A stretch of 56,096 bases of DNA. Source: Clostridia bacterium (lineage in GTDB: Bacteria > Bacillota > Clostridia > Oscillospirales > Acutalibacteraceae). Location: NCBI GenBank assembly GCA_017431035.1, contig JAFRLW010000042.1, forward strand, positions 1-56,096, written 5' to 3'. The notes beneath the pieces are model-generated. The model ran no database searches. It was given only the letters and a program-made list of their open reading frames with translations, and had not been told where the DNA came from. A program made the position numbers and the translations under genes. Below, one piece after another: positions 38,222 to 43,084 of the stretch. Every line of letters starts with the position of its first letter. Positions within the stretch are counted from its first letter, which is position 1.

Positions 38222-38375
38222 GTAGGGGCAGGCGTCCTCGACTGCCCGTTTATTTTATAAAATAACGTTTATAAATCGTAGGGCAGGCGCTCTCGACTGC
38301 CGTCTACATAATACGGGCTGTCGGAAACCGCCAGCCCCTACAACAAGGTAAAGCGGGCGGTATTCCGCCCGCTTT
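38222..38375. repeat. REP-like palindrome cluster
   Basis: Three copies of a ~28-bp unit beginning GTAGGGGCAGGCG and holding a short inverted repeat: 38222-38250 (+), 38278-38304 (+) and 38313-38341 (inverted). Outer ends GTAGGGGC and GCCCCTAC are mirror images. A separate 11-bp perfect hairpin, AAAGCGGGCGG-TATT-CCGCCCGCTTT, follows at 38350-38375. No ORF is present. Similar GTAGGGGC-type dispersed repeats are, to my memory, common in Oscillospiraceae. Confidence 0.7.
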
Positions 38376-38405
38376 CTATCATCTGACATCTATAATCCGA
38401 TAGTC

Positions 38406-38508
38406 ACTTTAGTGCAATAAAGTGATAAAGTGTATATGTTTTTTGTGCAAGTATACAAAAGTGATAAAAAAGGCAAAAAAACACTTTACAACTTTAGCGA
38501 ACTAAAGT
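38406..38508 (+). promoter_or_regulatory. Two matching operators upstream of the amino-acid ABC operon
   Basis: ACTTTAGTGCAATAAAGT (38406-38423) and ACTTTAGCGAACTAAAGT (38491-38508) share ACTTTA-N6-TAAAGT. The second fills the promoter spacer. Extra half-sites lie at 38426-38431 and 38483-38488. Centres are 85 bp apart, close to eight helical turns. The TrpR-family gene at 41636 in the same operon is the natural candidate binder (inference). Confidence 0.65.
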
Positions 38509-38513
38509 ATAAT
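38485..38513 (+). promoter_or_regulatory. Promoter of the amino-acid ABC transporter operon
   Basis: TTTACA (38485-38490), 17-bp spacer made of the palindromic operator, TATAAT (38508-38513). An AAAAAGGAG ribosome-binding site precedes the ATG at 38570. Confidence 0.82.
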
Positions 38514-38569
38514 GTGAACATAACAAAAAGACGAGCGCAAAAAAAACGCTCAAAAAGGAGAAATGAAAA

Positions 38570-39367
38570 ATGAAAAAGATTATTGCATTACTTATGGCAG
38601 TTGCCATGTTGGTTCTTTGTCTTGCAGGATGCGGAACAAAAGAGACCGGCAAGAAAACATTTACAATGGGTATAGACCCTGAGTATCCGCCCTTTAGTTA
38701 TTTAGGGGATGACGGCGAGTACACCGGTTTTGACGTTGAGATTTGCAAAGCCGCTTGTGAAAAACTCGGTTGGGATTTCGAAGTGTTCGGTGTTAACTGG
38801 GACCAAAAACTTGTTCAACTTGATGCTAAAGAGTGTGACTGCGTATGGTCGGGTATGACAATTCTTGACAGTATGAAGGAAGCAGGATACGTTATTTCCG
38901 AGCCTTACTACTACAACACACAGGTACTTGTTGTAAACGAGAACAGCGGTATCAAATCCTCAAAAGACCTTAAGGGCAAGACCGTTGCCGTTCAGCTCGG
39001 TACTTCGGGCGAGTCGCTTCTTAACGAGGACCTTACCGAACTCAAAGACAGTTTCAAAGAACTTGTAACCTGCGACAGTTTCCTTAAATGCTTTGCCGAA
39101 CTTGAGGGCAACGCCGTTGACGCAGTATTTGTTGACTATCCGGTTGCTAAAAGTTATGTAGCAGGCAAAGAGGATAAACTCACCATAATCAATGAAGAAC
39201 TCGGCGCCGAACAGTACGGTATAGCGTTCAGAAAAGGTGACGAGGAAACCTGCAAGAAGATAGATAATGCAGTTCAAGAACTTGTAAAAGACGGCACCTA
39301 TGCTAAAATCGCCGCCAAATATGAGGATATAGTTGATAACCTAATCTTCTTGAATAAGGATAAATAA
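38570..39367 (+). CDS. Amino-acid ABC transporter substrate-binding lipoprotein
   Basis: A 265-aa SBP_bac_3-type binding protein. Signal peptide with lipobox LAGC at about 18-21, so it is a lipoprotein on the outer face. The mature part starts FTMGIDPEYPPFSYLGDDGEYTGFDVEICKA, the polar amino-acid binding signature, followed by DGTYAKIAAKY near the end. First gene of a five-gene operon. Histidine is a candidate ligand by context with the TrpR-family regulator; cystine, glutamine or others are not excluded. Confidence 0.92.
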   Translation: MKKIIALLMAVAMLVLCLAGCGTKETGKKTFTMGIDPEYPPFSYLGDDGEYTGFDVEICKAACEKLGWDFEVFGVNWDQKLVQLDAKECDCVWSGMTILDSMKEAGYVISEPYYYNTQVLVVNENSGIKSSKDLKGKTVAVQLGTSGESLLNEDLTELKDSFKELVTCDSFLKCFAELEGNAVDAVFVDYPVAKSYVAGKEDKLTIINEELGAEQYGIAFRKGDEETCKKIDNAVQELVKDGTYAKIAAKYEDIVDNLIFLNKDK

Positions 39368-39385
39368 TAAATATTTTGCCAAATT

Positions 39386-39426
39386 GCCGGGCATAGCCTC
39401 TCTTTATAAGGGAGGCTTAATCCGGC
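39386..39426 (+). promoter_or_regulatory. Intercistronic stem-loop between binding protein and permease
   Basis: GCCGG (39386-39390) and CCGGC (39422-39426) enclose an 8-bp hairpin, GCCTCTCT...AGGGAGGC with one wobble pair. No T-run follows. Such structures often stabilise the upstream mRNA and raise binding-protein levels over membrane subunits. Confidence 0.7.
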
Positions 39427-39460
39427 TTTAGTCATTTTAATGAAACGAGGATAATAAAAG

Positions 39461-40108
39461 GTGACATTTGCGACAATAGTTTTGAAAATGGCAGAAGGAC
39501 TGTCAAAAACCTGCGCTATTTTCTTTTTGACACTTATTATTTCATTACCGCTCGGCGTTATAATTGCCCTGCTTAGAATGAGTAAAAACAAAATTATATC
39601 AAAAATCACGCAGTTTGTTGTTTCGGTGTTGAGGGGCACCCCTCTTATGCTGCAACTACTTGCCGTGACCTACGGCCCTTATTATCTGTTCGGGCTTAAC
39701 GTTTCGAGGAACAAACTTTTTCCCGTTGTAATTGCCTTTGCCATAAACTATGCCGCATATTTTTCGGAGATATACCGTGGCGGTATCGAGTCAATGTCGC
39801 AAGGGCAGTATGAGGCGGCGACCATACTCGGCTATACAAAGGCGCAAACGTTTTTGAAGATTATTCTTCCCCAGGTTATAAAGCGTATTTTGCCGAGTAT
39901 CACTAACGAGATAGTAACCCTTGTAAAAGATACTTCAATAGCCTTTACCGTTTCCTATCAGGAGATGTTCACAATAGGCAAACAGATAGCCAATTCGCAA
40001 ACGAGTTTCACTCCCTTCCTTGTAGCCGGCGTTTTCTATTATATCTTTAATGCTATTGTCGGCTTTGTTATGGGCAGGGCGGAAAAATCTTTGAGTTATT
40101 ACAGGTAA
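39461..40108 (+). CDS. Amino-acid ABC transporter permease
   Basis: A 215-aa HisMQ-type permease with about five membrane segments. VVSVLRGTPLMLQLLAVTYG matches the family N-terminal motif, and AYFSEIYRGGIESMSQGQYEAATILGYTKAQTFLKIILPQ is the ATPase-contacting EAA loop. Start GTG at 39461, 10 nt from ACGAGG. A single permease gene suggests a homodimeric channel. Confidence 0.93.
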   Translation: MTFATIVLKMAEGLSKTCAIFFLTLIISLPLGVIIALLRMSKNKIISKITQFVVSVLRGTPLMLQLLAVTYGPYYLFGLNVSRNKLFPVVIAFAINYAAYFSEIYRGGIESMSQGQYEAATILGYTKAQTFLKIILPQVIKRILPSITNEIVTLVKDTSIAFTVSYQEMFTIGKQIANSQTSFTPFLVAGVFYYIFNAIVGFVMGRAEKSLSYYR

Positions 40109-40120
40109 CGGGTGAACAGT

Positions 40121-40876
40121 ATGAATATTCTTGAAATGAAAAACATAAAAAAATCTTTCGGCGAAAATGAGGTTCTGAAAGATATCTCGCTAAAAGTAGA
40201 TGAGGGCGAGGTTGTGTCTATAATAGGCCCTTCGGGAAGTGGCAAATCAACCCTTCTTCGTTGTGCTACATTGCTTGAAAAGGCGGATGACGGTATAATC
40301 TCATACCTTGGCGACCCCGTGACCTATTATGATGAAAAGGGCGTCTACCGTTATCAAAAGGACCTTGCAAAGTTCCGCAAGGTGTTTGGACTTGTGTTCC
40401 AGAGCTTTAATCTTTTTCCACACTATAATGTGCTTAAAAACGTCACCGACGCACCGGTTTCGGTTCTTAAAGTAGATAAAGAACAGGCAAAAGCGGAAGC
40501 GTATGAACTGCTCTCTAAAATGGGACTTGAGGATAAGGCGGAAGCCTACCCGTATGAACTTTCAGGCGGACAACAACAAAGGGTGTCTATTGTAAGAGCA
40601 CTTGCCATGAAACCGAAAATACTCTTTTTTGATGAGCCTACAAGCGCTCTTGACCCCGAACTTACAGGAGAAGTATTAAAGGTTATAAAACAACTAGCCG
40701 AAGCCAAAATGACAATGGTTATCGTCACTCACGAAATGGCGTTTGCCCGTGCCGTGTCCGATAGGGTAATATTTATGGACGGCGGAGTTATCGTTGAAGA
40801 GGGCAAACCCGAAGACGTTTTCGGATCCACACAAAATGAAAGGACTAAACAGTTTTTACAAAACTATAATAAGTAA
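40121..40876 (+). CDS. Amino-acid ABC transporter ATPase
   Basis: A 251-aa ATPase of the polar amino-acid (HisP/GlnQ) family: Walker [10 protein letters not shown], signature LSGGQQQR, Walker [16 protein letters not shown]-loop THE. About 20 extra residues between Walker A and the Q-loop ([21 protein letters not shown]) distinguish it from typical GlnQ. ATG at 40121 is better placed than the GTG at 40112. Its TAA overlaps the next ATG by one base. Confidence 0.94.
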
Positions 40877-41646
40877 TGAAGATAGAGTATTACGTTGTCG
40901 ACCCTTCAAAAAACATTACCGCACTTGTTACTACACCGACAGATAATGCGGATAAAAAAGAGATAGCAAAAGCGATTATGATAAACAGCCCCGATATAGA
41001 GCAGGTGGGCTTTTTGTCCGAGGCGGACGGAAAAAACATTCTTGTAATGTCGGGGAATGAGTTTTGCGGAAACGCTCTTATGTCCGCTGCAACCGTAGTC
41101 TATTATCTTAAAGGTCTAAAGGGCGAGGAAAGTGTTATAATATCCTTTTCAGATTTTGGAGATTATGAAGTAAAGGTCAAAAAAGAGGATAACGCCTATT
41201 TTTGTACCTCTGTTATCGACGGGGCAAAAGATATAGGCGAAATAACCTTTTTATATAATGGAAAAAAATACACCTTTCCCGCCTTTTCGGTAAGGGGAAT
41301 AACTCATATTATTGCCGGTAGTTCTCTAAAACCCGAAACCGCCGCAAATCTTATAAAAGATGTGGCAAAGGATATAAACGACGCCGCAGTAGGAATAATG
41401 ATATTTGATAAAAACGGAAACAAAGTCACCCCTATAGTTTATGTGAGGGATGTTGACACCGTTTGTTTTGAAAACTCCTGCGCAAGCGGAACAATAGCGC
41501 TTTGCTATATGAACGGCAGTGAAAACGGCGAAGACTATGTTTTTCGGGGCGGAATAATCCACGCCAAAAAGCAAACGGACGGCGTATGCCTAATGGAGAA
41601 AATACACCTTAAAGAGAAAACGGAGGATATTTTATATGAACCGTAA
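40876..41646 (+). CDS. DapF-fold amino-acid racemase/epimerase-like protein
   Basis: A 256-aa protein with the diaminopimelate-epimerase fold pattern of two half-domains, each carrying a catalytic-type Cys: C64 in SGNEFCGNALMSAA and C202 in FENSCASGTIALC. True DapF uses GNGxRC and CGSGT, so this belongs to a divergent branch; CntK-type histidine racemases are in the same superfamily. Coupling to an amino-acid ABC transporter and a TrpR-family regulator points to an amino-acid racemase rather than lysine synthesis. Substrate unproven. Confidence 0.72.
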   Translation: MKIEYYVVDPSKNITALVTTPTDNADKKEIAKAIMINSPDIEQVGFLSEADGKNILVMSGNEFCGNALMSAATVVYYLKGLKGEESVIISFSDFGDYEVKVKKEDNAYFCTSVIDGAKDIGEITFLYNGKKYTFPAFSVRGITHIIAGSSLKPETAANLIKDVAKDINDAAVGIMIFDKNGNKVTPIVYVRDVDTVCFENSCASGTIALCYMNGSENGEDYVFRGGIIHAKKQTDGVCLMEKIHLKEKTEDILYEP

Positions 41647-41911
41647 AAAGATTTCCGAAAAAGAAATAAACGAACTTTATGATGTTATTTTGAAACTAAA
41701 GGATAAAAAAGACTGCAAAGAACTTTTTGACGACCTTTGCACAACAAAAGAAGTTGAACAAATGGCACAAAGGGTAAAGGCGGCAAAACTTCTTATGGAA
41801 GGTAATACCTATAACGACGTTATAAATCTGACCGATATTTCTTCTGCAACGCTCAGTCGGGTTTCCCGTTGCGTTCAGTATGGTAAGGGATATGCAAAGT
41901 TTGTAAAATAA
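41636..41911 (+). CDS. TrpR-family YerC/YecD regulator (HisR-like)
   Basis: A 91-aa all-helical protein of the TrpR-like YerC/YecD family: ISEKEINELYDVILKLKDKKDCKELFDDLCTTKEVEQMAQRVKAAKLLMEGNTYNDVINLTDISSATLSRVSRCVQYG. The helix-turn-helix falls at about 55-78. Family members in Firmicutes have been proposed to repress histidine synthesis and transport genes. The start lies 11 bp inside the preceding gene. It is the last gene of the operon and probably autoregulates it through the ACTTTA-N6-TAAAGT sites. Confidence 0.87.
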   Translation: MNRKKISEKEINELYDVILKLKDKKDCKELFDDLCTTKEVEQMAQRVKAAKLLMEGNTYNDVINLTDISSATLSRVSRCVQYGKGYAKFVK

Positions 41912-41919
41912 AATAGTCA

Positions 41920-41957
41920 AAAAAAGCGACAAAAGACAATTTTTTGTCGCTTTTTTA
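41920..41957 (+). terminator. Terminator of the amino-acid ABC operon
   Basis: AAAAAGCGACAAAA / TTTTTTGTCGCTTTTT hairpin and T-run just after the 41911 stop. Confidence 0.9.
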
Positions 41958-42008
41958 CAAAAACAAGATACTTTTGTAATGCAAATTGTAGATATTATAT
42001 AAAAATAC

Positions 42009-42048
42009 TTGACATTACTATTTTAGTAAGGTAATATATTTATATAAT
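42009..42048 (+). promoter_or_regulatory. Promoter of the sigma-factor gene with a palindrome in the spacer
   Basis: TTGACA (42009-42014), 17-bp spacer, TAATAT (42032-42037). The spacer contains TTACTA-TTT-TAGTAA (42015-42029), a perfect 6-bp inverted repeat and possible operator. A second TATAAT lies at 42043-42048. Confidence 0.68.
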
Positions 42049-42088
42049 ACTCAAAGTATGTCTACGTCAAAAGCAGTATGGAGAGTTT

Positions 42089-42646
42089 ATGGCGACTGAT
42101 TACAGCAAAATGACAAATGAACAAATAGCAAATGCCGTTAAATTGGGTGATTATGAGGGACTCGGGTTACTTATCAAAAACCTTATGCCCCATATAAAAG
42201 CGGCGGCTCTTAAATGGAAAAGCGTTGTAAATGATACCGACGATTTAGTAGGCGAGGGTATAACCGCCGTTTTCAAGGCGGTCAAGAGTTTTGACGAGAG
42301 CAAGGCTTCTTTTATCACCTTTGCAAAACTTTGTATTGACCGTGCTATAGGCAACAGGGTCAGAAGTGAACTCTCCGCAAAAAGAATACCCGAGAGTATG
42401 ATAGTTTCCTTTGAAAATGACAATATCTCTTGCGAGAGTGCGGAAGATCTTGTTATAAAGAAAGAAGAGGAAAACACCTTTAAGCAAAGTGTTGCCGAAA
42501 ATCTGTCAAACCTTGAAAGAGACGTTTTGAAACTTCATCTTGAGGGACAAGCATATCAGGAGATAGCAAACAATCTCGGTATTACGGTAAAATCGGTAGA
42601 CGGTGCGCTGCAAAGGATAAGAAACAAACTTAAAAAAATGCCGTAA
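42089..42646 (+). CDS. Sigma-70 family RNA polymerase sigma factor (SigH-like)
   Basis: A 185-aa sigma factor with region 2 (about 40-100: DTDDLVGEGITAVFKAVKSFDESKASFITFAKLCIDRAI) and region 4 with a helix-turn-helix (LSNLERDVLKLHLEGQAYQEIANNLGITVKSVDGALQRIRNKLKK, about 138-183). Length and layout are close to clostridial SigH, but the identity cannot be fixed from sequence alone. It is followed by a degenerate tRNA-like sequence and a zinc-ribbon gene. Confidence 0.85.
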   Translation: MATDYSKMTNEQIANAVKLGDYEGLGLLIKNLMPHIKAAALKWKSVVNDTDDLVGEGITAVFKAVKSFDESKASFITFAKLCIDRAIGNRVRSELSAKRIPESMIVSFENDNISCESAEDLVIKKEEENTFKQSVAENLSNLERDVLKLHLEGQAYQEIANNLGITVKSVDGALQRIRNKLKKMP

Positions 42647-42658
42647 GGCAAAAAATAT

Positions 42659-42732
42659 GCCCGGTAGCTTAATAGCAGAGCGTTGAAATTATTTATAAAA
42701 ACAAAGGTGTCGGTGCGATTCCGTCCGGGGCG
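42659..42732 (+). pseudogene. Degenerate tRNA-like sequence
   Basis: A 74-nt segment resembles a tRNA: 5' GCCCGG pairs with 3' CCGGGGC apart from one missing C, a D-arm TAGCTT...AGAGC, then a variable AT-rich middle, and a T-arm GTCGG-TGCGATT-CCGTC. The anticodon stem has at least two mismatches, the T-loop has G for the second T, and acceptor and T-stem overlap by one base. The acceptor resembles tRNA-Arg genes of Clostridia. Likely a tRNA remnant; no CCA is encoded. Confidence 0.45.
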
Positions 42733-42760
42733 ACAAAACCAATCAAGAGAGGTAGCAAAA

Positions 42761-43084
42761 ATGTTTGAAGACAAAACCCTAGTTTGCAAAGACTGCGGCG
42801 AAGAGTTCGTGTTTACCGCAAGGGAACAGGAGTTCTATGAATCCAAAGGCTTTGAAAACGAACCCCAAAGATGCAAACCCTGCCGTGACAAACGTAAAGC
42901 AGCAGCAAGAGGCCCACGTGAGATGCACGAGGCTGTTTGCGCCGCATGCGGTGGTGTTGCACGAGTTCCTTTCGTTCCGCGTGATGACCGTCCGGTTTAT
43001 TGCAGCGAATGCTTTGCAAAAATGAAGGAACAGGAAGCCGCTGAGGCTCCCGCCGAAGAAACCCCGAGCGAGACGGAAGAATAA
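42761..43084 (+). CDS. Small double zinc-ribbon protein
   Basis: A 107-aa protein with two zinc ribbons: residues about 8-45 (LVCKDCGEEFVFTAREQEFYESKGFENEPQRCKPCR), matching the probable zinc-ribbon family of Firmicutes, and about 58-86 (AVCAACGGVARVPFVPRDDRPVYCSECF). The acidic tail is EAAEAPAEETPSETEE. Function unknown. The ATG at 42761 has GAGAGG 8 nt upstream; the longer frame would run into the tRNA-like element. Own terminator downstream. Confidence 0.87.
   Translation: MFEDKTLVCKDCGEEFVFTAREQEFYESKGFENEPQRCKPCRDKRKAAARGPREMHEAVCAACGGVARVPFVPRDDRPVYCSECFAKMKEQEAAEAPAEETPSETEE

Follow-up and report, generated by a model that had tools for sequence, protein, structure and literature searches.

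An importer-racemase operon with HisR-type operators in gut and rumen Clostridia: a candidate system for D-histidine salvage

Contig JAFRLW010000042.1 of assembly GCA_017431035.1 (a Clostridia bacterium of the Acutalibacteraceae; genome of 1,479,978 bases, 95%-complete) is the window analysed here, 56,096 nucleotides at full length. On its plus strand, one transcription unit (38406-41956) holds a promoter with two operators, the genes of an ABC importer (substrate-binding protein, or SBP, permease and ATPase), a racemase gene, the gene of the regulator HisR and a terminator. The importer-racemase pair, and not this single genome, is the finding, since the two stay together in many relatives. 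We think it somewhat probable that this operon scavenges histidine under the control of HisR and has a histidine racemase built in, which would salvage D-histidine by turning it into the L form. Specifically, we infer that histidine is the substrate of both enzyme and transporter, that L-histidine is the effector of HisR and that the reaction runs from D to L.

The racemase (40876..41646, plus strand) is a cofactor-independent enzyme, probably a histidine racemase. Its family profile finds both histidine racemases of known structure, with E values of 1e-47 to 1e-53, against 1.6e-4 for the best solved diaminopimelate epimerase (DapF). Judged by sequence, its nearest characterised relatives are these two cofactor-independent histidine racemases and not DapF, in line with the kinship proposed by an earlier, sequence-only reading of the operon. 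That reading had also described a divergent DapF-fold racemase with two catalytic-type cysteines, and both are in place, Cys64 in an EFCGN context and Cys202 in ENSC. An ordinary diaminopimelate epimerase, present in a transport operon by chance, would likewise belong to this fold superfamily and have two cysteines in its active site. We consider this origin highly improbable and reject it: the racemase has no match at E 0.001 to Pfam DAP_epimerase (PF01678) or TIGR00652, and a separate canonical DapF is encoded on contig C41 of the same genome.

The closest solved structure is the histidine racemase of F. nucleatum (FN1732, also named HisR; PDB 9cr1/9cr6), with 24% identity in the structural alignment and the same catalytic cysteines. 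Its predicted histidine contacts are identical: Asn18, Glu65, Gly68, Asn69, Glu206, Ala210 and Ser211 of FN1732 correspond to Asn13, Glu62, Gly65, Asn66, Glu199, Ala203 and Ser204 of the window protein. CntK (PDB 6jis, 6jiw, 6l4l) shares the fold, the cysteines and the active-site glutamates. In an alignment of 93 rows, which includes 72 of the 80 loci described below (complete frames, ATG start) and in which ten rows are the same genomes twice, Asn13, Glu42, Glu62, Asn66, Glu199 and Ser204 are kept in 93/93, Gly65 in 90/93 and Ala203 in 75/93. This conservation is partly built in because the search patterns hold EFC and GN-x-T; Glu42, His144, Glu199, Cys202 and Ser204 lie outside the two patterns. 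Provided that the active site is what it seems to be, the two-cysteine chemistry of histidine racemases would apply.

How widespread is the pair? We searched 70 genomes of the genus and 100 of the wider family. The racemase occurs in 16 of the 70, with hisR directly after it in 14; hisR was not found in the two other racemase-bearing genomes (L039 and L041). Identity to the window's proteins within the genus is 65-91% for permease and ATPase, 64-75% for HisR and mostly 67-87% for the SBP (long pieces); the racemase is the least conserved product of the operon (34-43%). In the wider family it was found in 7 of the 100 genomes, and five of the seven belong to other genera. Of those five, four have SBP, permease, ATPase and racemase in order, with no hisR in the fetched stretch; around the fifth racemase gene no such transporter was found. 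A scan of 84,980 species' genomes with two peptide patterns gave at least 517 racemase relatives, and the wider counts rest on the best 80 of these. They are labelled mostly Clostridia, Ruminococcaceae, Oscillospiraceae and Lachnospiraceae, from rumen and gut, and also include Solobacterium, one Atopobiaceae and two records labelled Dehalococcoidales. By a distance rule, a homologous ATPase gene lies directly upstream of the racemase in 74 of the 80, and 71 have the whole set; the three loci with the ATPase gene and an incomplete set are cut by the contig end. Of the six that fail the rule, L163 and L170 have the set all the same, L124 has an intervening gene, L159 meets a contig end, and no transporter was found upstream in L136 and L182. 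Thus the import and racemisation of histidine suggested by the sequence-only reading gain support in silico from a pair conserved well beyond one genome.

Several loci add variations. In L133 (6001-7440), L163 (6001-7515) and L170 (6001-7452), a single continuous frame encodes the racemase and an endonuclease III-like DNA glycosylase (PF00730) as one fusion protein; length suggests the same fusion in L183 (6001-7452), and all four are Lachnospiraceae records. At L160 (3354-9522) and L132 (3356-9521), the racemase operon continues into a second amino-acid transporter, ATPase and hisR-like gene, with another TTTA-N6-TAAA between; in L160 this second transporter has SBP and permease fused (Pfam), and L132 looks alike by similarity only. 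A permease homologue search over 197 genomes of the order returned 4 matches at E 1e-80, a threshold that was too strict. Two of the four are from outside the genus: L212 has a partial racemase of the same family next to the transporter, encoded on the opposite strand, and L213 ends soon after the ATPase gene.

The operators tie the unit to HisR. Two exact copies of the palindrome ACTTTA-N6-TAAAGT precede the genes, O1 (ACTTTAGTGCAATAAAGT, 38406..38423) starting 85 bp upstream of O2 (ACTTTAGCGAACTAAAGT, 38491..38508), and O2 occupies the spacer of a sigma-70-type promoter (TTTACA-N17-TATAAT, 38485..38513, plus strand, 11/12 consensus bases). Both match the Gram-positive consensus cacTTTAnnnnnnTAAAgtg published for the YerC branch of the TrpR family, which was named HisR (Ashniev et al. 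2022, PMC9413887); a histidine role of the downstream genes would fit. One promoter with two such operators is what the sequence-only reading had seen, and the palindrome turns out to be the published HisR operator. Apart from O1 and O2, neither the window nor the rest of the genome has an exact copy, and the reversed control pattern has 0 matches in the genome. Only exact palindromes are informative, because copies with up to three mismatches are near the chance count (66 matches in the window versus 59 expected). Upstream of the 71 complete sets, TTTA-N6-TAAA is found in 28, whereas eleven other half-sites give 0-5 of 71 and ten other spacer lengths 1-4 of 71; of the 61 sets from other genera than that of the window, 19 have it. 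Given the exactness across the genome and these control half-sites and spacers, a chance origin of the palindromes is rejected.

The promoter has the top score among 10 promoter-like sites in 38300-42100, a number not above chance (shuffle mean 8.1). The call carries weight because the palindrome fills the spacer and because the arrangement is conserved: the same -35, box and -10 (TTTACA, TATAAT) recur in 21 of 23 genus rows, identical box sets being entered once, with L033 and L205 as exceptions. Since the box lies between -35 and -10, HisR on the operator should block the polymerase. Among ten different two-box promoters, that of the window included, six have a spacing of 84-85 bp and the rest 93, 97, 99 and 164. 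At this spacing of about eight turns, two dimers could sit on the same face, or the DNA could form a loop.

The regulator itself is a 91-residue protein (41636..41911, plus strand). It scores 88.5 bits with TIGR02531 (YerC/YecD; cut-off 42.2) and 75.7 bits with PF01371 (cut-off 27), and its solved relatives include 3g1c, which is treated as HisR in PMC9413887. By eye, the DNA-contact residues (helix 2 Ala, Thr and Arg; Tyr for Arg69) are kept in NTYNDV and SSATLSRV. Model and operator together thus bear out the assignment to YerC/HisR-like regulators. The HisR of R. gnavus binds its site when histidine is present (PMC9413887). In three genomes of the genus, a second HisR paralogue adjoins dapF (G103:C47 93408-94505, locus L012; G108:C48 26712-27810; G110:C12 65736-66826, locus L013), which suggests a HisR branch linked to lysine or diaminopimelate.

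A related hisR gene also accompanies another transporter. Twenty racemase-free operons of the genus all consist of SBP, permease, ATPase and hisR, and their HisR is 58-71% identical to that of the window. Their transporter differs, with 39-48% identity to the window for the permease, 52-59% for the ATPase and mostly 30-39% for the SBP (long stretches). The operator box is present in the stretch of 15 of the 20, which is not an unbiased rate because the operons were chosen partly for having an operator already listed. The simplest reading would be that a transporter-plus-racemase cassette replaced a plain transporter while repressor and promoter stayed.

All three importer genes are of amino-acid type. 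The SBP (38570..39367, plus strand) is a lipoprotein of the SBP_bac_3 family with linear topology (PF00497, 1.4e-33). Among solved chains, Gln- and Arg-type binding proteins come nearest to it, and the matches also include 4ohn, whose title gives it as bound to histidine. The permease (39461..40108, plus strand, GTG start) matches PF00528 at 1.9e-25 and passes the TIGR01726 cut-off. The ATPase (40112..40876, plus strand) is of polar amino-acid type (PF00005, 8.8e-36); it has a GTG start and an in-frame ATG at 40121. Its nearest NCBIfam models are TcyN, EhuA, GlnQ and HisP, none above cut-off among the 25 of 190 matches listed.

Among relatives, the SBPs of this operon appear, from the order of their segments, to be repeatedly circularly permuted. 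With three segments bounded at the presumed lobe crossings, 80 of 113 rows have the order 123 (linear, as in the window), 30 have 312 and three have 231; without the ten rows that are the same genomes twice, the counts are 75, 25 and 3 of 103. Order 312 is found for example in L030, L032, L033, L036, L038, L039, L044 and L173, and order 231 in L191, L197 and L202. The permuted SBPs inspected have a signal peptide at the new N-terminus, a lipobox Cys in all except L148 and a linker joining the old ends. Within a single genus, this operon has linear SBPs in some genomes and permuted ones in others. The cuts fall at one or the other of the presumed inter-lobe crossings, and a quick tree of reordered segments asks for at least five changes of order. 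The predicted structure of one permuted SBP was poor (pLDDT 61.5, 6 sequences) and its fold matches weak (query-normalised TM at most 0.39), those with titles all being binding proteins of the same class. Natural circular permutation has been described for the glucose-binding protein TpMglB-2, of a different structural class (PMC4990184). A literature search on permuted solute- or substrate-binding proteins gave no natural amino-acid case among the matches listed.

The last four genes are coupled, with a 3-base gap between permease and ATPase, a 1-bp overlap of the ATPase stop with the racemase and an 11-bp overlap of racemase and hisR; re-reading the open reading frames (ORFs) returned the coordinates, strands, frames and overlaps given by the sequence-only reading. 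An RNA hairpin of modest folding score (z -2.4) lies between the SBP and permease genes (39386..39426, plus strand). The unit closes with an intrinsic terminator (41920..41956, plus strand), a strong hairpin with a U-tract (folding z -6.7); the pattern scan listed it on the minus strand only, and on the plus strand the stem is likewise present, with TTTTTT after it.

Around the operon, GGGCAGGCGYYCTCGACTGCC occurs twice upstream (38226-38246 and 38281-38301; chance expectation none) and looks like an intergenic repeat element. Downstream, a small sigma-70-family gene (42089-42646) follows hisR and stays adjacent in several genomes of the genus, with either transporter cassette. Next comes a tRNA-like match (42658-42733; Rfam RF00005, 31.9 bits, gathering 29) on which ARAGORN makes no call; it overlaps the TTG-start end of a zinc-ribbon-like ORF (42683-43084), the true start of which is probably an ATG near 42761.

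What would such an operon do for the cell? In the window's genome hisB and hisD were not found, and the search for operators before his genes proposed by the sequence-only reading leads back to the operon, which has the only exact ones. In the genus, hisB is present in 48 and hisD in 49 of the 70 genomes. For hutH there was no match in the 70 genomes, with a control matching in 5, and histidine catabolism through hutH is rejected for the genus (0/70). With neither hisB/hisD nor hutH, the cell probably needs external histidine and would not degrade it by the hutH route. We propose that, when L-histidine is plentiful, HisR with L-histidine on O2 (and on O1 upstream) would shut the operon, its own gene included. 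When L-histidine is scarce, repression would lift and SBP, permease and ATPase would import histidine. The racemase would turn imported D-histidine into the L form needed for protein synthesis, and either enantiomer could then serve as histidine source in a cell probably unable to make its own. If repression by L-histidine works as in R. gnavus, the racemase would be made only when L-histidine is short. This favours the direction D to L because making D-histidine would worsen the shortage, which the opposite direction relieves. The sequence-only reading had left it undecided whether D-amino acids are used or made, and this regulatory logic leans towards use.

Several observations weigh against D-histidine salvage under HisR control. 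The racemase stays far below the cut-offs of the named histidine-racemase models (98.4 bits versus 400 for NF052224, 81.5 versus 300 for NF033599) and by these scores would be a member of neither equivalog, a sister group at most. The SBP, like those of the 14 genus relatives inspected, has Met in place of an Arg of solved relatives, an Arg which we take to be the holder of the substrate carboxylate, and this makes the ligand uncertain. That Met is found in 48 of 103 rows, counted at a fixed offset that is crude where there are indels; as groups were defined by a motif containing it, the count is no independent measure of conservation. Among the 80 relatives, only 13 have a hisR gene within the stretch fetched (immediately behind the racemase in nine, L109-L116 and L129; at the operon head in L124 and L164; farther downstream in L132 and L160), and 43 of the 71 complete sets are without an exact TTTA-N6-TAAA upstream. 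Auxotrophy is no requirement, since hisB and hisD are present in seven of the 16 racemase carriers. In raw counts the link between racemase and auxotrophy is suggestive, with 9 of 16 carriers auxotrophic against 12 of 54 others by hisD (Fisher p 0.014) or 13 of 54 by hisB (p 0.029), some genomes being incomplete and the hisD match of G108 a short fragment. This excess is without phylogenetic support: an RpoB-fragment tree has 6 racemase changes, weakly resolved, and 1 independent pair on well-supported branches. The tree holds 60 of the 70 genomes; 63 had a match, G101 and G151 (short) and G150 were left out, and G107 and G155 are mostly gaps. As for the effector, L-histidine has been demonstrated only for R. 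gnavus HisR, and other roles have been predicted for some HisR paralogues (PMC9413887); this genus has up to three paralogues. Finally, D-histidine did not restore growth of an F. nucleatum racemase mutant, in a species reported to deplete both D- and L-histidine from media (PMC11602996).

Two other explanations compete with salvage. The enzyme could run in reverse, with imported L-histidine as its starting material, and supply D-histidine for a product such as a metallophore, an altered cell wall or a secreted signal. CntK, the best-studied relative, does make D-histidine, for staphylopine (PMC11602996, PMC7438024), and the seven carriers with hisB and hisD would not strictly need salvage. 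Nevertheless, we find this direction unlikely. CntK sits in a metallophore cluster with CntL and CntM, whereas the genes of the window operon include neither type, and no nicotianamine synthase or opine dehydrogenase; a metallophore role finds no support. The opine dehydrogenase family PF10100 was found in 0 of the 70 genus genomes, by a search equally silent in 14 control genomes. By crude ORF calls, relatives outside the genus mostly have different frames downstream of the racemase, and repression by L-histidine would yield D-histidine only when L-histidine is short.

Alternatively, transporter, racemase and this HisR paralogue might serve a different amino acid or a compound resembling histidine, this branch of HisR having changed its effector. 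HisR2 paralogues with tyrosine genes have been predicted (PMC9413887), one of the paralogues of this genus lies beside dapF, the Met of the SBP is odd, and the racemase diverges most within the operon. Against this stand the predicted histidine contacts, conserved over the 93 partly motif-chosen rows, and the classical histidine operator that accompanies both transporter cassettes of the genus; we judge such a change of substrate a little less probable still than the reverse reaction.

Histidine transporters under HisR, including some encoded in one operon with hisR, have been published before (PMC9413887). The HisXYZ*-hisR operon of Acholeplasma laidlawii described there shares with ours HisR, a palindromic operator, autoregulation, a three-gene ABC transporter and histidine auxotrophy; the window operon adds a racemase gene between transporter and hisR. 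The main text of that paper, supplements lying outside the search, contains neither 'racem' nor 'D-histidine'. FN1732 lies in an 'orphan operon' near V-type ATPase and aminodeoxychorismate-type genes, and its role was stated to be unclear (PMC11602996), whereas the window racemase is coupled to a HisR-controlled importer. The portions of PMC9413887, PMC11602996, PMC7438024, PMC12039745 and PMC6955911 available to us describe no racemase with a HisR-controlled transporter. Literature searches on D-histidine use with transport or racemase found nothing, and those on diaminopimelate epimerase with TrpR/YerC found only PMC9413887.

Salmonella dhu mutants use D-histidine through raised histidine ABC transport, owing to a promoter mutation, and turn it into L-histidine with general enzymes. 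The window operon differs in having a dedicated racemase within the transport operon. We envision, tentatively and with somewhat more doubt than for salvage by this operon, that importer and racemase form a system dedicated to the use of D-histidine and widespread among Clostridia of gut and rumen. Often controlled by a HisR-type operator, it would move as a cassette that takes the place of the plain histidine transporter within the HisR operon, and its SBPs would have been permuted several times, at both presumed inter-lobe crossings. The operon appears to show how a transporter cassette can be swapped with repressor and operator retained. If salvage is indeed its function, stand-alone cofactor-independent histidine racemases would gain a physiological role, and related genes in such operons could receive a name. 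A conserved, histidine-regulated importer-racemase unit makes the question of the Fusobacterium racemase's role directly testable, and it predicts that many gut and rumen bacteria may be able to live on D-histidine.

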